From a virus, in the IMG/VR virus record IMGVR_UViG_3300044858_004131, positions 1 to 22,109 of that record: 22,109 nucleotides of DNA; one strand, written 5' to 3'. The position numbers and the translations under genes were made by a program. Below the pieces are notes generated by a model. That model saw nothing but the letters and a program-made list of their open reading frames with translations, was not told the origin of the DNA and did no database searches. Shown here in pieces: positions 3,874 to 14,652 of this stretch. Numbering within the stretch: the first letter of the stretch is position 1; every line of letters starts with the position of its first letter.

Positions 3874-4947
3874 ATGCATGACGTTTTATTCATCGACTTC
3901 GAGACGCGCTCCGCGTGCGATCTTAAGAAAGCCGGCTCTCACCTCTACGCTGCTCATCCTAGCACTGAAGTCCTTTGCTTGGGTTTCGCTTTCAGTGGTG
4001 AGCCTCCTAGGATCTATGTTCCTGGGAGCGATTCTTACCCATCTGATGTCGTAGAGCATGTCGCGGCATGGGGACTTGTCGTTGGACACAATATTGGCGG
4101 GTTTGAAATCCCTGTATGGAACGAAGTCCTACACAAAAGACACGGATGGCCCCCTCTCCACGCCGATCAATGCCGAGACACCATGGCCCAAGCCTACGCC
4201 TGCGGGCTCCCGGGCTCTCTCGAAGGGTGCGCGTCCGCTCTCGGAATCGAAAAGCAAAAGGACATGGCCGGCCACAGGATTATGCTTCAGTTGTCGCAGC
4301 CAAAAGACGTCGATGAAAAAACCGGCGCGATCACGTGGAGAGAAGATGCCGCAAAATTCCAAGCCCTTGTCAACTACTGCCTCCAAGACGTCGAGGTCGA
4401 GCGCGAAGTCTACAAGCGCCTCCCGCGCCTCTCCGAAAAAGAGCAAGCCCTCTGGGAGCTTGACCACTACATCAACCGGCGTGGCGTATACATCGATGTT
4501 CGATCCGCACGCAAAGCCCAGGCTCTTATCGAGTTTGAAAAAGAGCGTCTGGACAAAGAGATTAGAAAAGTAACCGGGAACGCGGTGGCTACCTGTACCG
4601 CGGTGGGGCAGCTCACAGATTGGCTGCGTTTTAGGGGGGTGGAAACTGAGGGGGTAGCAAAGGCCGATGTTTCAGCGCTCCTCAGTAGGCAGGAACTACC
4701 TGAAGATTGTCGCGCGGCTTTGGCGCTGCGGCAAGAGGCGGCAAAATCTTCGACCGCAAAAATTAACGCGATGCTCGGGAGCAGCGGAGATGACCAAAGA
4801 GTTCGGGGTACGCTGCAATACCACGGGGCCACGACCGGAAGATGGGCGGGGCGCAAGATCCAGGTGCAAAACTTTCCACGTCCTTCGCTTTCCCAAAAGG
4901 AAATCGTGGACGTAATCGAAAACATCATTGGGGGAATCGATGATTAA
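3874..4947 (+). CDS. DNA polymerase family A, N-terminal half (exonuclease + thumb)
   Basis: First part of a split phage DNA polymerase I-type enzyme (357 aa). Seen: proofreading exonuclease motifs Exo I FIDFETRS (D8, E10), Exo II GHNIGGFE and Exo III YCLQDVEVE, then the thumb region and the conserved stretch GATTGRWAGRKIQVQNFPRP that binds the duplex. The frame stops at TAA 4945-4947, just after ENIIGGIDD, about 65 residues before the point where palm motif A appears in the downstream gene. The two halves add up to 666 aa, close to the usual length of the intact family. It starts 4 nt after the 29-aa gene. Expected to work only with the C-terminal product in trans, unless joined at RNA or protein level. 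Confidence 0.9.
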   Translation: MHDVLFIDFETRSACDLKKAGSHLYAAHPSTEVLCLGFAFSGEPPRIYVPGSDSYPSDVVEHVAAWGLVVGHNIGGFEIPVWNEVLHKRHGWPPLHADQCRDTMAQAYACGLPGSLEGCASALGIEKQKDMAGHRIMLQLSQPKDVDEKTGAITWREDAAKFQALVNYCLQDVEVEREVYKRLPRLSEKEQALWELDHYINRRGVYIDVRSARKAQALIEFEKERLDKEIRKVTGNAVATCTAVGQLTDWLRFRGVETEGVAKADVSALLSRQELPEDCRAALALRQEAAKSSTAKINAMLGSSGDDQRVRGTLQYHGATTGRWAGRKIQVQNFPRPSLSQKEIVDVIENIIGGIDD

Positions 4948-5122
4948 GAACCTAGTCCTTACCGACAAAGAGCACTCTTTTCTCGTGAGACTTCTCACCG
5001 CTGTACGCGATGAGATGAATCTTAAGGGGCCAAACGAGCCCATGACCGTGGACATGAAAATGACCGTACCCGAGCAGATGGATCTCAACGAGATTTTCAA
5101 GCGGCTCGTTTCGTGGAAGTAA
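4940..5122 (+). CDS. 60-aa protein encoded between the polymerase halves
   Basis: Small gene lodged in the break of the DNA polymerase. I choose ATG 4940, preceded by GGGGGA at 4930-4935 (a good ribosome binding site, 4 nt away); a TTG at 4928 would add four residues. It overlaps the polymerase N-half by 8 nt and the C-half by 10 nt, so all three should be translationally coupled. The product (MIKNLVLTDKEHSFLVRLL...) looks like a folded small helical protein with an amphipathic helix at about 8-25 and a second near the C-terminus. No nuclease motif (no HNH, GIY-YIG or LAGLIDADG), so it is not a visible homing endonuclease. It resembles small phage proteins of unknown function. A structural or regulatory partner of the split polymerase is possible, but inferred. 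Confidence 0.7.
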   Translation: MIKNLVLTDKEHSFLVRLLTAVRDEMNLKGPNEPMTVDMKMTVPEQMDLNEIFKRLVSWK

Positions 5123-6042
5123 AAGAAGCTTCCGAAATAATCCAGCTCACCTACGGCGCGCCCATGGAGGTTGTGTCGTCGTGTCTGCGTGGGTTCATTG
5201 CTGCACCCCCAGGGAAGATCCTTGTGGGCGCAGACTTCTCTTCGATTGAGGCCAGGGTATTAGCGTGGCTCGCTAAAGAAGAGAAGGTGCTCGAAGTCTT
5301 TTGCACTCATGGAAAGATTTACGAGAAGGCGGCCGCTGAGATTTACTCCGTGCCGATGATTGATAAAGTTAGCAAGGATCAAAGGCAGATTGGCAAGGTC
5401 GCAGTTCTCGCCCTTGGATACGGCGGCGGCAAAGGCGCGTTTCAATCCATGGCAAATGCCTACGGCGTAAAAGTCTCAGACGACGAAGCCGAAGGAATCA
5501 AGATGCGCTGGCGCGCCACGAACCCTCGCATCGTGCAGTTTTGGTACGACCTCGAAGACGCGGCGAAACGAGCGATCGAAACGAAACAGCAAATCAAACT
5601 TCGCCAATGCGACGTGTCCTATAAGGTCGCAGGTTCCTTTTTGTTTTGCCGCCTACCATCGGGCCGCGTGATCGCGTACCCCTATCCCAAAGTTGAAATG
5701 AAGATGAAGCGCTGGGGCACCGAAGCTCCCACGATCACGTTCATGGGGGAAGATCCTCTCACTCGCAAGTGGGTGCGAATGGACACCTACGGCGGGAGCT
5801 TATGCGAAAACGTTGTGCAGGCCGTCGCGCGAGACATCCTTGCGGAGTGCCTGTTTCTTTTGCGCCGAGAAGGTTTTAATACGGTCCTTCACGTCCATGA
5901 CGAGGTGCTTTGTGAGATCCCGTTGTCCGAAAAAGAAAATTGCGTCGAGCGCCTTGAACAGTTGATGGAGGTTGTGCCAGCGTGGGCTCACGGACTACCT
6001 CTCAAGGCTGAAGGCAACTGCGACACAAGGTATTGGAAATGA
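5113..6042 (+). CDS. DNA polymerase family A, C-terminal half (palm + fingers)
   Basis: Second part of the split polymerase (309 aa). Seen: motif A VGADFSSIEARVLAWLA (catalytic D41), motif B RQIGKVAVLALGYGGG (R91, K95, Y103) and motif C HVHDEV (H262, D263, E264); all catalytic residues of the nucleotidyl transfer site are here. The frame is open back to a TAA at 5023, but the only start codon before the conserved region is GTG 5113; ATG 5164 would cut into the conserved segment TYGAPMEVVSSCLRGF. The ribosome binding site is weak, so coupling to the upstream small gene is likely. It is in the same frame as the N-half. The end overlaps the prim-pol start as ATGA. Confidence 0.9.
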   Translation: MEVKEASEIIQLTYGAPMEVVSSCLRGFIAAPPGKILVGADFSSIEARVLAWLAKEEKVLEVFCTHGKIYEKAAAEIYSVPMIDKVSKDQRQIGKVAVLALGYGGGKGAFQSMANAYGVKVSDDEAEGIKMRWRATNPRIVQFWYDLEDAAKRAIETKQQIKLRQCDVSYKVAGSFLFCRLPSGRVIAYPYPKVEMKMKRWGTEAPTITFMGEDPLTRKWVRMDTYGGSLCENVVQAVARDILAECLFLLRREGFNTVLHVHDEVLCEIPLSEKENCVERLEQLMEVVPAWAHGLPLKAEGNCDTRYWK

Positions 6043-8228
6043 ACCTTCTCGACTCCGCGCTAGAACTGGCAACAAAGTACGGGCTTCGCGTGTTCCCCTG
6101 CGCCCCGAACTCGAAGCTTCCCGCAATAAAAAACTACACCGAAGAAGCTACAAAAGACCCCAAAAAGATTCGCCTTTGGTGGGAGCAAAACCCAAACTAC
6201 AATATCGGAGTCCCGACAGGCGTTGAGTCCGGAATCATCGCCGTTGACGTGGACATGAGCGAAGGGAAAGATGGCGAAGCGTCGGTCCTCCAAAAAGAAC
6301 TCGAAGGCAAAGCGTTCCCGCCAACCCTCGAACAGAAGACTCCTCGCGGTGGGCGACACCTTATCTATCGTTGCGACAAAAATCTCCGCCAAGGTGTCAG
6401 CGTCCTTGGACAACACGTGGACCTCAGAGCTTCAGGCGGCTACGTCGTTGGCGCTGGAAGCCGCGCTGAGGGAGGGACTTACTCCCTCGTGCCTCGTGGT
6501 ATCGCAGAGTGCCCCGAGTGGATTGTCGAGAGTCGCCATCGTGAGTCTGGACCCGAAACTCTCCCCGCCCTCCCAGCGAAAAGCAAATCTGTCGGAGTGG
6601 ATCGAGTTTGGGCGTTCTCTAGAGCGATACCGTTCCTTAGAGAAGAAGCAAAGCCCGCAGTAAGCGGCGACGGCGGAGATCAGACTACCTTCCAAGTCGC
6701 AGCACGACTGAAAGACTTGGGCGTTGGAGAGGACGAAGCCATCATCCTGATGCTCGACCACTACAACCCCCGTTGCGTTCCCCCGTGGTCGGCAAGTGAT
6801 ATCACTTCTAAAGTACAGAATGCGTATAAGTATGGGGAAAACGCGCCTGCTTTGCTAAACCCCTCCGCACAGTTTGATATCATCCCGGCACCCGAAGAAG
6901 CGGAGACAGTTGAAGAAGCGGTCGAGCGATTAAACAAAACCTTCTCTTTTGTTTTGATCGGCGGCACGCATCGCATCGCCTACGAAACTACCGACGAGTA
7001 CGGCGCTCCGACGACACAGCTTGTGAAGGAAGAAACCTTCCATCAAATGTTATCAAGCGATCGGGTCGTGGTGACGCAAAAGAAAGCTATCGTTACGCTC
7101 CCGACAAGCAAAGCTTGGATCATCCACTTTAACCGCCGCTCATATCGCGGCATGACTTTCGTCCCCGGCGAAGGCCGCGACGTGAACGGGATGTTTAACC
7201 TTTGGCGTGGCTTTGCGTGCGAGCCCTACGCGACCGCCGAGGAAGCAACCGACTCCGACCGCAAGGCCGTCGCCATGTGGCGGGAACATATCCTTGAAAC
7301 CATTTGCTTAGGCAACACCGAGCACGCGGCTTGGGTCGAAGCGTTCTTTGCGCAGATGCTCCAAAAACCGAAAGAAAAGCCGCTCTGTGCTCTCGTTCTT
7401 AAAGGCGGCAAAGGCGCGGGGAAAACAAGTTTCATTGATTGCGTGGGCGTCGGACTAGGAGATAATGCAAAGACTCTCGCGAGTCGCAGGTATCTCTTTG
7501 GGAATTTTAACTCCCACTTGGAAGCGAATCTTCTTTTGGTTTTGGACGAGGTTTTCTGGGCGGGGGACAAAGCAGCGGAAGGGATGTTAAAAGACCTGAT
7601 TACCGGACGATCCCATCAGATAGAACGAAAGGGCGTTGAGCCGCGCACCATTCAAAACTATTCTCGCATCGTTATTACTGGAAACGACGAGTGGATTGTA
7701 CCCGCCTCAGCCGACGAGCGCAGGTTTGCGGTATTTGATCTCGGCCCCTCACAAGAAAATACAAAGGCATACTTCCAAGAAATGCTAGAGCGCATGGAGG
7801 CGGGCGGACGCCGCTTGCTGTTTCGCTACCTTCTCGACTTGGACATATCCAAGGTGGATATCAACACCGCGCCGGATACGGCCGCGCTCAAAATGCAGAA
7901 ATTAGAGAGCCTCCCGCCCCTCGATCAATTCTTTTTCGAGTTGGCGCGATCAGGAAAATACTCTGCGCTCAGCTTCACGTGGCCCGAGGAGCCGAGCGAA
8001 ATAGACTCAGATACGCTTCACGCCATGGTTAAGCACTACTACGACTCGAACTCTATACGGGGGTGGGTGCCTTCTAGGATTAAAATCGGATTAAAGCTTA
8101 AGTCTATTTTTTCCAGGGCCGACCGTGGGCGCAGGAAAAAAGACGACGGAGAATTTATCACTGTCTACGATCTCCCCCCGCTGGAAAAAGCGAGAGAGCT
8201 GGCGCGTAAATCGTTTAAGATTTCTTAA
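6039..8228 (+). CDS. bifunctional prim-pol / SF3 helicase (DUF5906, VirE-like)
   Basis: 729-aa two-domain replication protein. The N-terminal prim-pol domain (about 1-165) makes primers: seen are the entry motif FPCAPNSKLP, the metal-binding AVDVD (D70, D72) and GGRH (H107). The C-terminal superfamily 3 helicase/ATPase domain has Walker A GGKGAGKTS at 456-464, Walker B LLLVLDE (D503, E504), a sensor ITGNDEW and an arginine-rich DERRF, as in DUF5906 and virulence-associated E proteins. I choose ATG 6039, which forms an ATGA overlap with the polymerase stop, instead of TTG 6033. It probably unwinds and primes for the split polymerase encoded immediately upstream. Length is normal for the fusion. 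Confidence 0.92.
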   Translation: MNLLDSALELATKYGLRVFPCAPNSKLPAIKNYTEEATKDPKKIRLWWEQNPNYNIGVPTGVESGIIAVDVDMSEGKDGEASVLQKELEGKAFPPTLEQKTPRGGRHLIYRCDKNLRQGVSVLGQHVDLRASGGYVVGAGSRAEGGTYSLVPRGIAECPEWIVESRHRESGPETLPALPAKSKSVGVDRVWAFSRAIPFLREEAKPAVSGDGGDQTTFQVAARLKDLGVGEDEAIILMLDHYNPRCVPPWSASDITSKVQNAYKYGENAPALLNPSAQFDIIPAPEEAETVEEAVERLNKTFSFVLIGGTHRIAYETTDEYGAPTTQLVKEETFHQMLSSDRVVVTQKKAIVTLPTSKAWIIHFNRRSYRGMTFVPGEGRDVNGMFNLWRGFACEPYATAEEATDSDRKAVAMWREHILETICLGNTEHAAWVEAFFAQMLQKPKEKPLCALVLKGGKGAGKTSFIDCVGVGLGDNAKTLASRRYLFGNFNSHLEANLLLVLDEVFWAGDKAAEGMLKDLITGRSHQIERKGVEPRTIQNYSRIVITGNDEWIVPASADERRFAVFDLGPSQENTKAYFQEMLERMEAGGRRLLFRYLLDLDISKVDINTAPDTAALKMQKLESLPPLDQFFFELARSGKYSALSFTWPEEPSEIDSDTLHAMVKHYYDSNSIRGWVPSRIKIGLKLKSIFSRADRGRRKKDDGEFITVYDLPPLEKARELARKSFKIS

Positions 8229-8239
8229 GTATCTATGTG

Positions 8240-8267
8240 TTGTGAGATCCCCACAGTCTTATAAAAT
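8240..8267 (+). promoter_or_regulatory. putative promoter of the GIY-YIG gene, leaderless type
   Basis: TTGTGA at 8240-8245 and TAAAAT at 8262-8267 with a 16-bp spacer, in the 47-nt gap after the prim-pol gene. Eight bases separate the -10 box from the ATG at 8276, so the transcript would begin at or within about two bases of the start codon; the gene has no good ribosome binding site. Pattern match only. Confidence 0.35.
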
Positions 8268-8275
8268 CTTAGGCA

Positions 8276-8632
8276 ATGACGGGCTCAAGGACGAGAACCT
8301 ACGTCTGCTACAAGTGTAAGCGAAAGATCCACGACGAGGAGTCGCATAGCCAGACGATCTATTTCGTCTCCTCCGAAGAGATGGAATTCATCAAGATCGG
8401 GATCACCAAAGACCTAGAAACCCGCATGAAAAAGCTTCAGAATGCTTCGCCATTCAATCTAAAAGTCCTCCGCACCGTGAAGGGGGAGATGGCCCACGAG
8501 GTTGCGCTACACCGCCGTTTTGCGAGCCTACGCCACAACCGGGAGTGGTTCCGCGTGGACCTAGAGCTGCTTCAATTCATTGAATCCCTTGAAGAAGGGG
8601 AGCCCATAAAACTTTCTTTCATCGAGGCTTGA
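8276..8632 (+). CDS. T5orf172/Mug113-type GIY-YIG domain protein
   Basis: 118-aa protein of the GIY-YIG nuclease superfamily, T5orf172 type. Seen: a single CxxC pair (C11, C14), then IYFV at 28-31, KIGIT at 40-44, the conserved R50 and LQ, E75 in AHEVALHRRF and EWF at 90-92; this order is typical of the family. Such proteins occur in phages alone or fused to other domains and may act as free-standing homing-type nucleases or in DNA processing. No other domain is present, so the specificity is unknown. The ATG at 8276 is the first possible start and has no Shine-Dalgarno sequence. It is the only candidate mobile-nuclease gene in the window, 3.2 kb from the broken polymerase. Confidence 0.85.
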   Translation: MTGSRTRTYVCYKCKRKIHDEESHSQTIYFVSSEEMEFIKIGITKDLETRMKKLQNASPFNLKVLRTVKGEMAHEVALHRRFASLRHNREWFRVDLELLQFIESLEEGEPIKLSFIEA

Positions 8633-11638: not shown

Positions 11639-13522
11639 TTATCTTGGTCCTTGGCAGTGGATTGATACCGGCTCGTCCTGGTTTGATCCTCCCGTGGACG
11701 CAGTTAGAACGTCAACGTTGGTCGCTGAAGTCACCTGACAAGATGCATGTACCGCCGCATTTCTATTTGGGGAGCAAGTGCAAACAGGGACACCTGTAAA
11801 CCCGGACATTGTGTAGGTATAAGTTCCGGCTCCAGACCTAGTAGCCGTGATCCAGGAGGAGCTGCTATCAAATACTGTGCATGTTCCAGCCGAGCACCCG
11901 GTGTTTCTATTGGTCGTTCCGATAACCGCGCGCTCAACCCGCTCAAGCCCCGAGCTGTTCGACGTGACGGAGCCGACGAGGAGTGGAGCTGGGAAGGATT
12001 GATCGAGCGCGATGATGGTCCACCGGATGTGGCTTGTGGACTGAGAGCCTGGGCCTGTAATGCGAACATCACCTGCGGAAGCGACCCCTCGAATTCGAAC
12101 AGTCACTGCGCTGGTCGAGGAGGCGTATACGATGCCTTGAAGAGTGTGTGGAGTGTATTCGTTACCTGGGGCTGAGAAGCTAGAGTTGCCTAGGCTATTA
12201 GTCCCATCATAAAGCTCGTAGGTGGAAGTGTTTCCAGAAGAGGTAAGTAGCCCAGAAAAGTTTGCAATTACCAAGAATCTTCCGGCGCGGCGTGGAGTGA
12301 AAACTATCCCCGGCAACTTATCCGAACCGCTTAGCTGAGATGTGACTGTCCCAAAGTTTACGTTTTGCTGTTCGATAAAATCGCAAGTTGCGTCTGCGGG
12401 GAAATCGCCCAAGGATGTTCCTGAACGTGAGTAGGTGCAGTTGCTCCCATGGTACCCATTCCAAGACGCCGGAAGCGTGTCCACTCGTGCGGCGGTTTCG
12501 GAGGAGGTGGGGAAGCGGTAGACCGAAATCTCAAAATCCCGCGTATCTCCACGAATGGATAATGCGTTAGTTCCGTTGCGGATAGCCTGAAGCTGAACGG
12601 TGATGTCAGACTGAGCGTTTGCGTAGCTTACAAATCCGTAAAGAGAAGTCTGACCTGCGTCGCTTGCGGCAATTGCTCCCTGTGAAGAAAACCCGTTTGT
12701 TCCGTCAAAGAATCTTAGAGCGTATTCTTCCGAAGCAGCGTTTTGTTTTTGGAAGAAGTTAGTAACGTAAAAAGCGTAGTTCCCAGGAGGTAGGTTTTGC
12801 AATCTAACGCCTGGTACTTTTGTTGTAGGAGCCGAAACTCCTCCTGTTACAGTAGCAGTAGGGCAATCCGTATCTGCTGGAAAACTTGTGAACGAAGCCG
12901 CTGAGGACACACTCCATAAGCAGTTAGTCGTAGAGGCGTATCTAAGAGTTCCGTAAAGCGTAGCCTGCGAAACCTGAAACAGGTTGAACCCATCAGCTCT
13001 TCCTAGGTAGCAGTCGTCCGCGTAAACGATCGGCTCGTTTGACGCGACCGAGATCAAGCGAAGAGAGAGGGTGCCGGAAACAGGAGCGGAACCCGTGACG
13101 TAGGTCGGAGTAAAGCCTGAAGTGTTGTTTGAGATCGAGGCTTCAGCGAGGACGTTCGTGCCGTCAAAGAGCTGGACCTTCCCGGTGTATGCTCCCGCAA
13201 CTTTAAAGTAGCAGCCGCCCGTGATGTTCGCGCTCGACAGACCGTTGCCTGAGGTGATCGCGACACTCGCAGCGGTGAGGGTCTGGGACGCAGACGAAGA
13301 ATCCCATGATCCCGTTGCGGCTCCTGCAAACTTATTTGCCGCAGCGTTTGTCGTGACGAACGTTCCACCTGATGCGGTCCATGCCCCGCGTCCCGCTTCA
13401 AAGCCAGGGTTCGTGAGCATATTCCCGCGAGGTGCGGCGACACTCTTATCGAGTTCCGATAACGCAGCTTCGGCGTTTAATCCTGCGAGCAGTCCCAGAA
13501 GAATAATCATTTTCTCGATCAT
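11639..13522 (-). CDS. secreted lectin-like receptor-binding protein with signal peptide
   Basis: 627-aa protein encoded with the tail fibre by an ATGA overlap. Seen: a Sec-type signal peptide (hydrophobic IILLGLLAGL at 6-15, AEA cleavage motif at 17-19); a carbohydrate-binding-like module at 33-174 (LTNPGFEAGRGAWTASGG); two related modules at about 198-337 and 359-508, each with NC...FPADxxC near the start; a GT-rich C-terminal domain at about 520-627. The motif DGTN occurs at 120, 273 and 439, once per module. Twelve cysteines, pairwise spaced (201/220, 362/380, 543/548), suggest disulfides, which fits export. Similar modules occur, to my memory, in tail proteins of phages of predatory or marine bacteria. 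Role: either tail receptor binding or a secreted surface factor. Confidence 0.75.
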   Translation of the reverse strand: MIEKMIILLGLLAGLNAEAALSELDKSVAAPRGNMLTNPGFEAGRGAWTASGGTFVTTNAAANKFAGAATGSWDSSSASQTLTAASVAITSGNGLSSANITGGCYFKVAGAYTGKVQLFDGTNVLAEASISNNTSGFTPTYVTGSAPVSGTLSLRLISVASNEPIVYADDCYLGRADGFNLFQVSQATLYGTLRYASTTNCLWSVSSAASFTSFPADTDCPTATVTGGVSAPTTKVPGVRLQNLPPGNYAFYVTNFFQKQNAASEEYALRFFDGTNGFSSQGAIAASDAGQTSLYGFVSYANAQSDITVQLQAIRNGTNALSIRGDTRDFEISVYRFPTSSETAARVDTLPASWNGYHGSNCTYSRSGTSLGDFPADATCDFIEQQNVNFGTVTSQLSGSDKLPGIVFTPRRAGRFLVIANFSGLLTSSGNTSTYELYDGTNSLGNSSFSAPGNEYTPHTLQGIVYASSTSAVTVRIRGVASAGDVRITGPGSQSTSHIRWTIIALDQSFPAPLLVGSVTSNSSGLERVERAVIGTTNRNTGCSAGTCTVFDSSSSWITATRSGAGTYTYTMSGFTGVPVCTCSPNRNAAVHASCQVTSATNVDVLTASTGGSNQDEPVSIHCQGPR

Positions 13523-14652
13523 GCGAACGTAACCTCCGCCCCGTACACGGGCATTTTAGAATCGCCGGTCGCCGTATCCGTGTCGCGGAACAAGCGCACC
13601 AAAATCAAATCGTTTGCCGATACTGCCACGGAATTGATCTGCCCGGTAGCCGAGGACAAATCGAAATCAAGGAGCTGCGCTTCATCTTGGGTCGCGCCCG
13701 ATAGCGTGATCGCAGCGTTCGTAGAAGTCCGTTGATTTGTGGTCGAAGAGACGGGATCAGTTGCTACCCGGATCAGCGTTGCAACCGTCTTCATGTGGAC
13801 GTCGCCCGACGTGTCGTTTGAATACACGTAGGACTTAAGTTTGATCGGGTTGCCGGCGGTATAAGTCGAGGGGACTTTGATCACGGCGTACAGGGATTGC
13901 GCGAGTGAGTTTCCAAACGCGTAAATGCGGATGTTGTTTTCCAATGAAGGAAGCGGAGCGTTCTCCGATTCTTCCCACGCGAGACTCCCGCCTCCGCCGC
14001 CCGAGGAACCCCAACGCAAGCCCGCGGTTTGCGAAGAGTCTGCGAGAAGGACTTGCCCGTCCGAGCCCACGCCCACCCGTTGATTGGTTCCGGAATGGAA
14101 AGTGAGGAGATCGCCCTTTGTCGTGAGAGGGGAGATCACGTCAAAGTCAGCGGTCGTTGAATCGACAAGCTCAAACGCTGTCGCGCCCGCGTTGATGCGA
14201 AGGACTTTCAAAGCTTCGATAAGAGAAGGCAAACGAAGATTTGAGAACGTTCCGGAGTACCCGTCCGTCAAACGGATCGAGCGGTCGAGCTGATCTTGAA
14301 GCCGCTGCACAATCATCGTGAGCTTGTCGAACCGCTCTTCGATTTCTTCGGCAGGCATTGGGTCGTTTTCGACCAAGTCCAAATCCTGCACCTTCGCAGG
14401 ATCGCGATAGATGATGAGCGTTTCGCCAGAGGCAGGGGCGGAAAGCATCGTGACCGATCCACCGGCCGGAAGCCCCGCTCCCGTGATCGTGTAGTTCGTC
14501 GTGATGGTTTGAGTAGTTTCAACACCCGTCGTGTTGTTGCGTTTCACCACAACGAGATCGGCGTTTTGCAGGAAATAGTACGGGAAGGAAAAGACGGTCG
14601 TCGATCCGTTTCCGGCGTAAGAAACCCGATTGATTGTGGTTGCGATCGTCAT
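13519..14652 (-). CDS. T7 gp17-type tail fibre protein
   Basis: 377-aa tail fibre. The N-terminal adaptor domain (1-150) is T7 gp17-like: NRVSYAGNGSTTVFSFPYYF, LIIYRDP at 80-85, and EEIEERFDKLTMIVQRLQDQ with the helix that ties the fibre to the tail. It continues with the phage-fibre motif GSDGQVLLADSSQTAGLRW at 196-214, a glycine hinge GGGGGS, and a beta-rich C-terminal domain (about 225-377) with the strand NSVAVSANDLILVRLFRD. It probably recognises the host or carries the downstream lectin-like protein. ATG 14652 is preceded by ACGGAGCG. The gap to the upstream gene is 31 nt without features. Confidence 0.88.
   Translation of the reverse strand: MTIATTINRVSYAGNGSTTVFSFPYYFLQNADLVVVKRNNTTGVETTQTITTNYTITGAGLPAGGSVTMLSAPASGETLIIYRDPAKVQDLDLVENDPMPAEEIEERFDKLTMIVQRLQDQLDRSIRLTDGYSGTFSNLRLPSLIEALKVLRINAGATAFELVDSTTADFDVISPLTTKGDLLTFHSGTNQRVGVGSDGQVLLADSSQTAGLRWGSSGGGGGSLAWEESENAPLPSLENNIRIYAFGNSLAQSLYAVIKVPSTYTAGNPIKLKSYVYSNDTSGDVHMKTVATLIRVATDPVSSTTNQRTSTNAAITLSGATQDEAQLLDFDLSSATGQINSVAVSANDLILVRLFRDTDTATGDSKMPVYGAEVTFA

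Follow-up and report, generated by a model that had tools for sequence, protein, structure and literature searches.

A signal-peptide-bearing protein of putative sugar-binding type encoded next to the tail fibre in uncultured phages and in a cultured Bdellovibrio phage

Gene arrangement at the tail-fibre locus

The stretch of DNA analysed here (the window) comprises 22,109 nucleotides, positions 1 to 22,109 of the IMG/VR virus record IMGVR_UViG_3300044858_004131. On its minus strand it encodes a tail fibre, directly followed by the gene of a signal-peptide (SP)-bearing protein, hereafter the partner protein (Table 1). The N-terminal domain of the fibre is of the T7 type, with a Pfam PF03906 match of 20.1 bits, below the 25.2 cut-off. 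The start codon of the partner gene and the stop codon of the fibre gene overlap as ATGA. Among the relatives, 45 of 48 have the same ATGA start and 42 of 48 a Shine-Dalgarno (SD)-like motif, which confirms the translational coupling to the fibre gene proposed in the preliminary description. The GAGGT that encodes a conserved Glu-Val at the C-terminal end of the fibre (13522-13540 in the window, and in relatives) is at the same time the SD of the next gene.

The other side of the partner gene is occupied by ORFs for small membrane proteins, by an NlpC/P60 protein, and by what may be a lipoprotein, which places the partner gene between tail and lysis genes. The phage encodes an integrase, and the internal virion protein beside the fibre is of the HTVC010P/epsilon15-like podovirus type. 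Separate genes encode an exonuclease-like part (RNase_H_2; 3874-4947) and a small polA-like part of a polymerase (5113-6042). The window protein has no match in Pfam or among PHROGs with a function, hence no curated family match that would make it a gp38-type adhesin. PADLOC also leaves it unmatched, and a role in a defence system was rejected on this ground.

Table 1. Features of the partner gene and the adjacent fibre gene in the window
Feature	Coordinates	Strand	Residues	Basis or remarks
T7-type tail fibre	13519..14652	-	377 aa	phrog_1640 tail 1.6e-35; 8ck1_B, 7ey9
Fibre C-terminal domain (CTD), CBM61/CBM6-like jelly roll	13522..13965	-		Stays paired with the SP gene in different phages
Shine-Dalgarno GGAGG of the SP gene	13533..13537	-		Within the last fibre codons, 10 nt upstream of ATG
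SP-bearing partner protein	11639..13522	-	627 aa	ORF; ~50-member family
Signal peptide, predicted cleavage between AEA and A	13466..13522	-	aa 1-19	MIEKMIILLGLLAGLNAEA; hydrophobic/AXA character kept among relatives
N-terminal CBM-like jelly-roll domain	12995..13423	-	aa 34-176	Motif NPGFE; Cys104/Cys171; 8xmz TM 0.82; CBM16 2zey TM 0.73
TNF/C1q-like domain 1	12509..12964	-	aa 187-338	Cys201/Cys220; PDB 8okw_C (Bd2734 tip)
Probable second TNF-like domain	11999..12490	-	aa 345-508	Cys362/Cys380; domain-1-like Cys spacing and strand order
Variable C-terminal beta domain	11642..11944	-	aa 527-627	Cys581/Cys623; swapped between close relatives (window vs L004)

An unbiased search of IMG/VR with the fibre CTD as bait returned 52 loci with many unrelated fibre N-termini, 51 of them with downstream sequence (L064 ends at the fibre). 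These include L023, the second CTD copy of a contig on which the complete cassette (L044) is found as well, and the duplicates L033/L034, L052/L053, and L062/L063. The motif STTNQRTSTN is almost invariant in the CTD alignment. In 48 loci the next gene (the next but one in L058 and L066) encodes an SP followed by an NPGFENGKAGW-like motif. Thus, the SP protein placed inside the tail operon by the preliminary description is fixed beside the fibre across unrelated phages, and searches with the partner protein likewise find relatives in quite different phages. The pair of CTD fibre and SP partner is also kept despite insertions, namely a GIY-YIG-like gene (L066:6461-7270) and another gene (L058:6307-7182).

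Signal peptide, cysteines, and domains of the partner protein

The window protein starts with MIEKMIILLGLLAGLNAEA followed by ALSELDK; its hydrophobic core spans 11 residues and its cleavage site reads A-E-A. Signal peptides were called with our own rule, which demands a charged n-region, a hydrophobic core, and an AXA-type site; those with a weak n-region or a GTG start (L029, L055, and L059) were judged by eye. The rule is passed by 44 of 50 family proteins and by 43 of the 559 other ORFs of the same loci, a set with many tail genes in it; several of the 43 are upstream tail-fibre genes with an SP of their own. The window copy fails the strict version, as its slightly atypical n-region has a side-chain net charge of 0. 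Counting only partner genes picked by the fibre bait alone, an SP is present in 48 of 51 vs 43 of 559 other ORFs (Fisher p ~5e-36, relatedness uncorrected). The signal peptide with an AEA motif noted earlier is therefore upheld as an n-h-c type with a weakly charged n-region.

Nearly all SPs of the family have AXA-type sites with A, Q, or T at +1. Their pairwise identity averages ~0.33 and is independent of the identity of the next domain, also where the latter reaches 60-85%; the window and L004 proteins, for instance, share 85% in the domain after the SP and 31% in the SP itself. The SP character is kept though its sequence is lost, which points to selection on function rather than sequence. 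The mature window protein has no membrane anchor and no lipobox cysteine at +1 (AEA followed by ALSE), the mark of superinfection-exclusion lipoproteins of the Cor/Llp type.

Signal peptides are also found on upstream fibre genes, in L009 (5611-6444), L017 (5653-6450), L021 (2125-4263), L023 (4399-6444), L038 (6777-8555), L044 (4927-6447), L046 (4559-6411), and L066 (3252-6450), and an upstream fibre-like gene of L019 (159-2072) starts with one as well. L046 contains three SP-bearing fibre-like genes in a row in addition to the SP partner. In L044 and L038 the SP is fused to seemingly ordinary tail-fibre N-domains (YTTNYNLAKP..., VTVNG..HTIPQTNERGWG).

The window protein has 12 cysteines (104, 171, 201, 220, 362, 380, 543, 548, 581, 583, 595, and 623), in agreement with the paired spacing described before, and the pairs co-occur in relatives. 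Residues 104 and 171 are either both present or both absent in all 21 aligned relatives; for 201/220 both are present in 17 relatives and a single one in 2, and for 581/623 these values are 19 and 1, respectively. The pair 362/380 is broken in 5 of 21, apparently where the domain has been replaced. An even number of cysteines is seen in 40 of the 43 complete mature SP-bearing partners (p=1.5e-9), compared with 100 of 181 (55%) for the background of SP-less ORFs with at least 2 cysteines. Identity pruning, the only correction for kinship that was applied, leaves 34/37, 23/26, and 12/13 (p=0.0017) at <50%, <35%, and <25%, respectively. The picture is similar for the SP-bearing tail genes upstream, where 13 of 14 counts are even, several of these being zero. 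An even number fits an oxidised, exported protein, and both Sec export and oxidised folding of the partner are predicted from sequence with high confidence. As for cysteine content as a marker of the SP, it was ruled out, since the L003 protein has 14 cysteines without an SP and several SP-bearing members have few.

The structure of the partner was predicted with AlphaFold2 from an alignment with 21 relatives (mean pLDDT 76.5) and consists of beta domains. Domain 1 resembles the tip of Bd2734, a MAT (mosaic adhesive trimer) fibre that the predator has been shown to display on its surface (PMC10769870), both by sequence (phmmer 2e-15, profile 3e-23) and by structure, 8okw (the Bd2734 C-terminal domain) being the first-ranked Foldseek PDB match with TM 0.84 and rmsd 2.3 Å. 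The second TNF-like domain has no PDB sequence match of its own. The nearest BFVD structures are uncharacterised phage proteins together with many minor tail and tip proteins of phages. The partner appears to be a soluble adhesin of lectin/TNF-like fold and of sugar-binding type.

SP-less relatives and the probable host

A partner without SP occupies the fibre-adjacent slot only in L012 and L014, with five cysteines (an odd number) in each. Both are nested inside the SP-bearing clade, so their SP was probably lost. A different case is L003:7491-9356, an SP-less chimera with another N-terminus, whose TNF-like and C-terminal modules are 56% identical to the window protein over 448 residues; it is located near other tail-like genes. 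Modules have thus been exchanged between proteins with and without SP. According to the preliminary description, relatives that start after the signal segment would speak against its reading; such relatives exist, but they are limited to the two nested proteins and the chimera, and the loss of the SP looks secondary. L012 and L014 nevertheless show that export is not indispensable.

Among cultured phages, the Bdellovibrio phage phi1422 (NC_019525) encodes directly after its tail-fibre gene gp67 a protein of 614 aa, gp68, which starts with MKFMIAFIIALFSVTMATA followed by QIKG. A distant relative, it matches family member L058 in the N-domain region (8e-8), and a direct blast comparison with the window protein gave nothing significant. 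Another protein of this phage, gp75 (L072:21299-21811), also starts with an SP (MKSFAFLFILLFGFLAQAS). Tail-fibre genes of four phi1422 sister phages (Iodobacter, Aeromonas, Vibrio, and Pectobacterium) carry no SP, and none was found on the fibre or in the post-fibre slot of the Pelagibacter (HTVC010P-type), Stenotrophomonas, Vibrio, Pseudomonas, and Salmonella phages checked; one HTVC010P gene farther downstream passes the SP rule, apparently as a false positive. The uncultured Manatee Spring podovirus MW202898 encodes an SP protein at this position, and the N-terminus of its fibre is 58% identical to that of the window. L086, a UViG that judging by its IMG number may stem from an isolate genome, bridges the MW202898 SP protein and gp68. 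Taken together with the homology to the MAT tip, these links make a Bdellovibrio-like predator the likely host of the window phage. An SP-bearing protein of sugar-binding type thus stands beside the fibre in dozens of uncultured phages and in one cultured Bdellovibrio phage.

Direct searches with the window protein gave no isolate match among 50,697 phage records and no match in phage and plasmid collections, and a genome search with the partner protein itself gave no relative. The Bd2734 tip fragment is unmatched in phages, and the proteins of L065, L066, phi1422 (gp68), and Manatee Spring have no PDB match to the other MAT tips (C-type lectin, beta-sandwich). The only match in a genome collection is a phage contig (L041) in a 2.4 Mb Dependentiae MAG. 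With 0 of 100 other Dependentiae genomes matching, the contig is probably misbinned, and a Dependentiae host was rejected. In L041 an intein-like segment enclosing an HNH-like ORF seemingly splits the DNA polymerase A gene (4118-7143), and a second intein-like segment is possible at 7596-8519. Host inference from tRNAs was abandoned, as a single tRNA-Ser was present, in L021. The record of Dunaliella viridis virus SI2 (H45 and H46), which bears the name of an algal virus, has matches to internal virion proteins of podophages and probably belongs to a bacteriophage that was mislabelled.

Interpretation and comparison with known systems

We know of no tailed phage that builds part of its tail outside the cytoplasm, virions being taken to assemble inside it. 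The reading proposed here, to which we give slightly less than an even chance, is that the partner is a Sec-exported, disulfide-bonded adhesin, made by phages of Bdellovibrio-like predators, whose attachment to the tail fibre takes place outside the cytoplasm. The adhesin would leave the cytoplasm via Sec with cleavage of its SP, and its disulfides would form in the periplasm; the host would be a diderm and most likely a predator of the Bdellovibrio type. The adhesin's lasting partner is the distal C-terminal domain of the fibre encoded directly upstream. At lysis, the exported adhesin may meet virions assembled in the cytoplasm and cap their fibres as a receptor-binding tip. Bdellovibrio grows inside its prey, and lysis inside the closed prey ghost (bdelloplast) would hold virions and exported tips in a tiny volume. 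Tailspikes of P22 can be added to heads in vitro, so late attachment is physically possible.

Whether the partner associates with the fibre is by itself an evenly balanced question in our estimate. Such an association is suggested by a gene that stays with one CTD, by C-termini that close relatives swap, by same-slot versions devoid of an SP, and by the modules shared with L003; the minor tail and tip proteins among the BFVD neighbours point to a tail role as well. Provided that the forms lacking an SP act on the virion, those with an SP probably do so too, joining after lysis. We infer the receptor function, the physical binding to the fibre, the assembly after lysis, and the host named above. 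Attachment to the tail outside the cytoplasm, one of several roles listed in the preliminary description, is thus the best fit for a gene locked to one fibre CTD across unrelated phages, its binding step staying conjectural. The fullest version, in which predator phages build the distal receptor-binding part of the fibre outside the cytoplasm, with fibre as well as tip proteins passing through Sec, periplasmic disulfides, and post-lysis fitting in the prey ghost, and exchange tips with the MAT fibres of the predator, is possible, if on the unlikely side.

The main rival to the fibre-tip reading is a lectin, either free or at the surface, that acts on the infected predator or on debris. The partner would then be exported and act apart from the virion, either as a phage-encoded MAT-like surface adhesin or as a free lectin covering receptors on the infected cell or debris, with altered prey binding, a superinfection block, or progeny release as the outcome. 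This is possible, if on the unlikely side: the SP and the tip homology to Bd2734 on the predator surface (PMC10769870) agree with it and the integrase makes lysogenic conversion possible, but the gene belongs to a late tail/lysis operon, locked to the fibre CTD, and the N-domain is CBM-like and probably other than the ~130-aa MAT N-domain. The mature protein also speaks against it, having neither a lipobox nor an anchor. For this reason, of the proposal that the protein is exported during infection to coat the host surface, the export part is retained (kept SP, even cysteines), while neither the coating part nor blocking of superinfection found positive support.

Export might also serve folding only, with the periplasm oxidising a disulfide-dependent adhesin that acts on the virion or free, and with an SP that is dispensable where the host oxidises otherwise. 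The even counts in SP-bearing members and the odd ones in L012 and L014 (5 and 5) are in line with this explanation, which is compatible with the fibre-tip reading; however, cysteines are scarce or absent in some SP-bearing members and SP-bearing upstream fibres (L041, L046), which shows that an SP has other reasons besides cysteines, and L003 combines many with no SP, so we consider it improbable. That the hydrophobic N-terminus is an uncleaved virion-assembly segment, i.e., a non-working SP, is very improbable: some N-termini, that of the window included, lack a net positive charge, but the near-universal AXA-type sites, the unconserved sequence of the segment, and the cysteine parity all argue for cleavage and export. 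An artefact or a mis-called start could be suspected in a single short metagenomic contig; the ATGA and SD motifs of the relatives and the same arrangement in cultured phi1422 already exclude it for practical purposes.

A selected and recurrent SP on a fibre-locked protein would imply either tail assembly divided between two compartments or secreted phage lectins of a new class. The pattern also suggests that predatory bacteria have many uncultured phages, and it connects receptor-binding modules of phages with the MAT fibres that Bdellovibrio uses for prey recognition.

Among CC-licensed papers, no report was found for tailed phages of SPs on tail fibres or of an exported protein that rejoins virions after lysis, the arrangement that the fibre-tip reading requires and a point against it. 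Lambda Lom, phi80 Cor, and T5 Llp are exported phage proteins encoded near tail genes. The partner resembles them in this respect, but they are membrane proteins or lipoproteins, whereas it is a large soluble lectin-like protein without an anchor. Adhesins of the gp38 type (T2, S16) are encoded just downstream of tail fibres. They share with the partner the gene slot and a modular receptor-binding role, the latter as proposed for the partner; in contrast, they fold in the cytoplasm without an SP and have no sequence family in common with it (no Pfam match). The "caprin-2 domain protein" of MW202898 follows the fibre, has an SP (by an internal Met) and an NPDAE domain, and is related to L012 and L022; it differs in its length of 917 aa and in a fibre-like stalk of its own between SP and CBM.

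MAT proteins are surface-displayed trimeric fibres with SPs and exchangeable tips, that of Bd2734 being a divergent TNF-like domain (Caulton et al. 2024; PMC10769870). They have a common N-domain of ~130 aa reported to have no structural homologues in the PDB. The window protein shares with them, and with the Bd2734 tip (PDB 8okw), the SP, the TNF/C1q-like tip, a matching cysteine pair, and modular tips. MAT proteins, however, are bacterial surface fibres with a long stalk, while the window model comprises an SP, a CBM, and two TNF-like domains and has no long trimeric stalk; the place of the conserved MAT N-domain is probably taken by the CBM-like domain. The closest cultured counterpart is gp68 of phi1422, which like the window protein is SP-bearing and directly follows the fibre gene. 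It is annotated as hypothetical and its phage is a myovirus, and the likeness comprises the SP, the slot, and the match between gp68 and L058. As phi1422 is in culture, the question is testable now.
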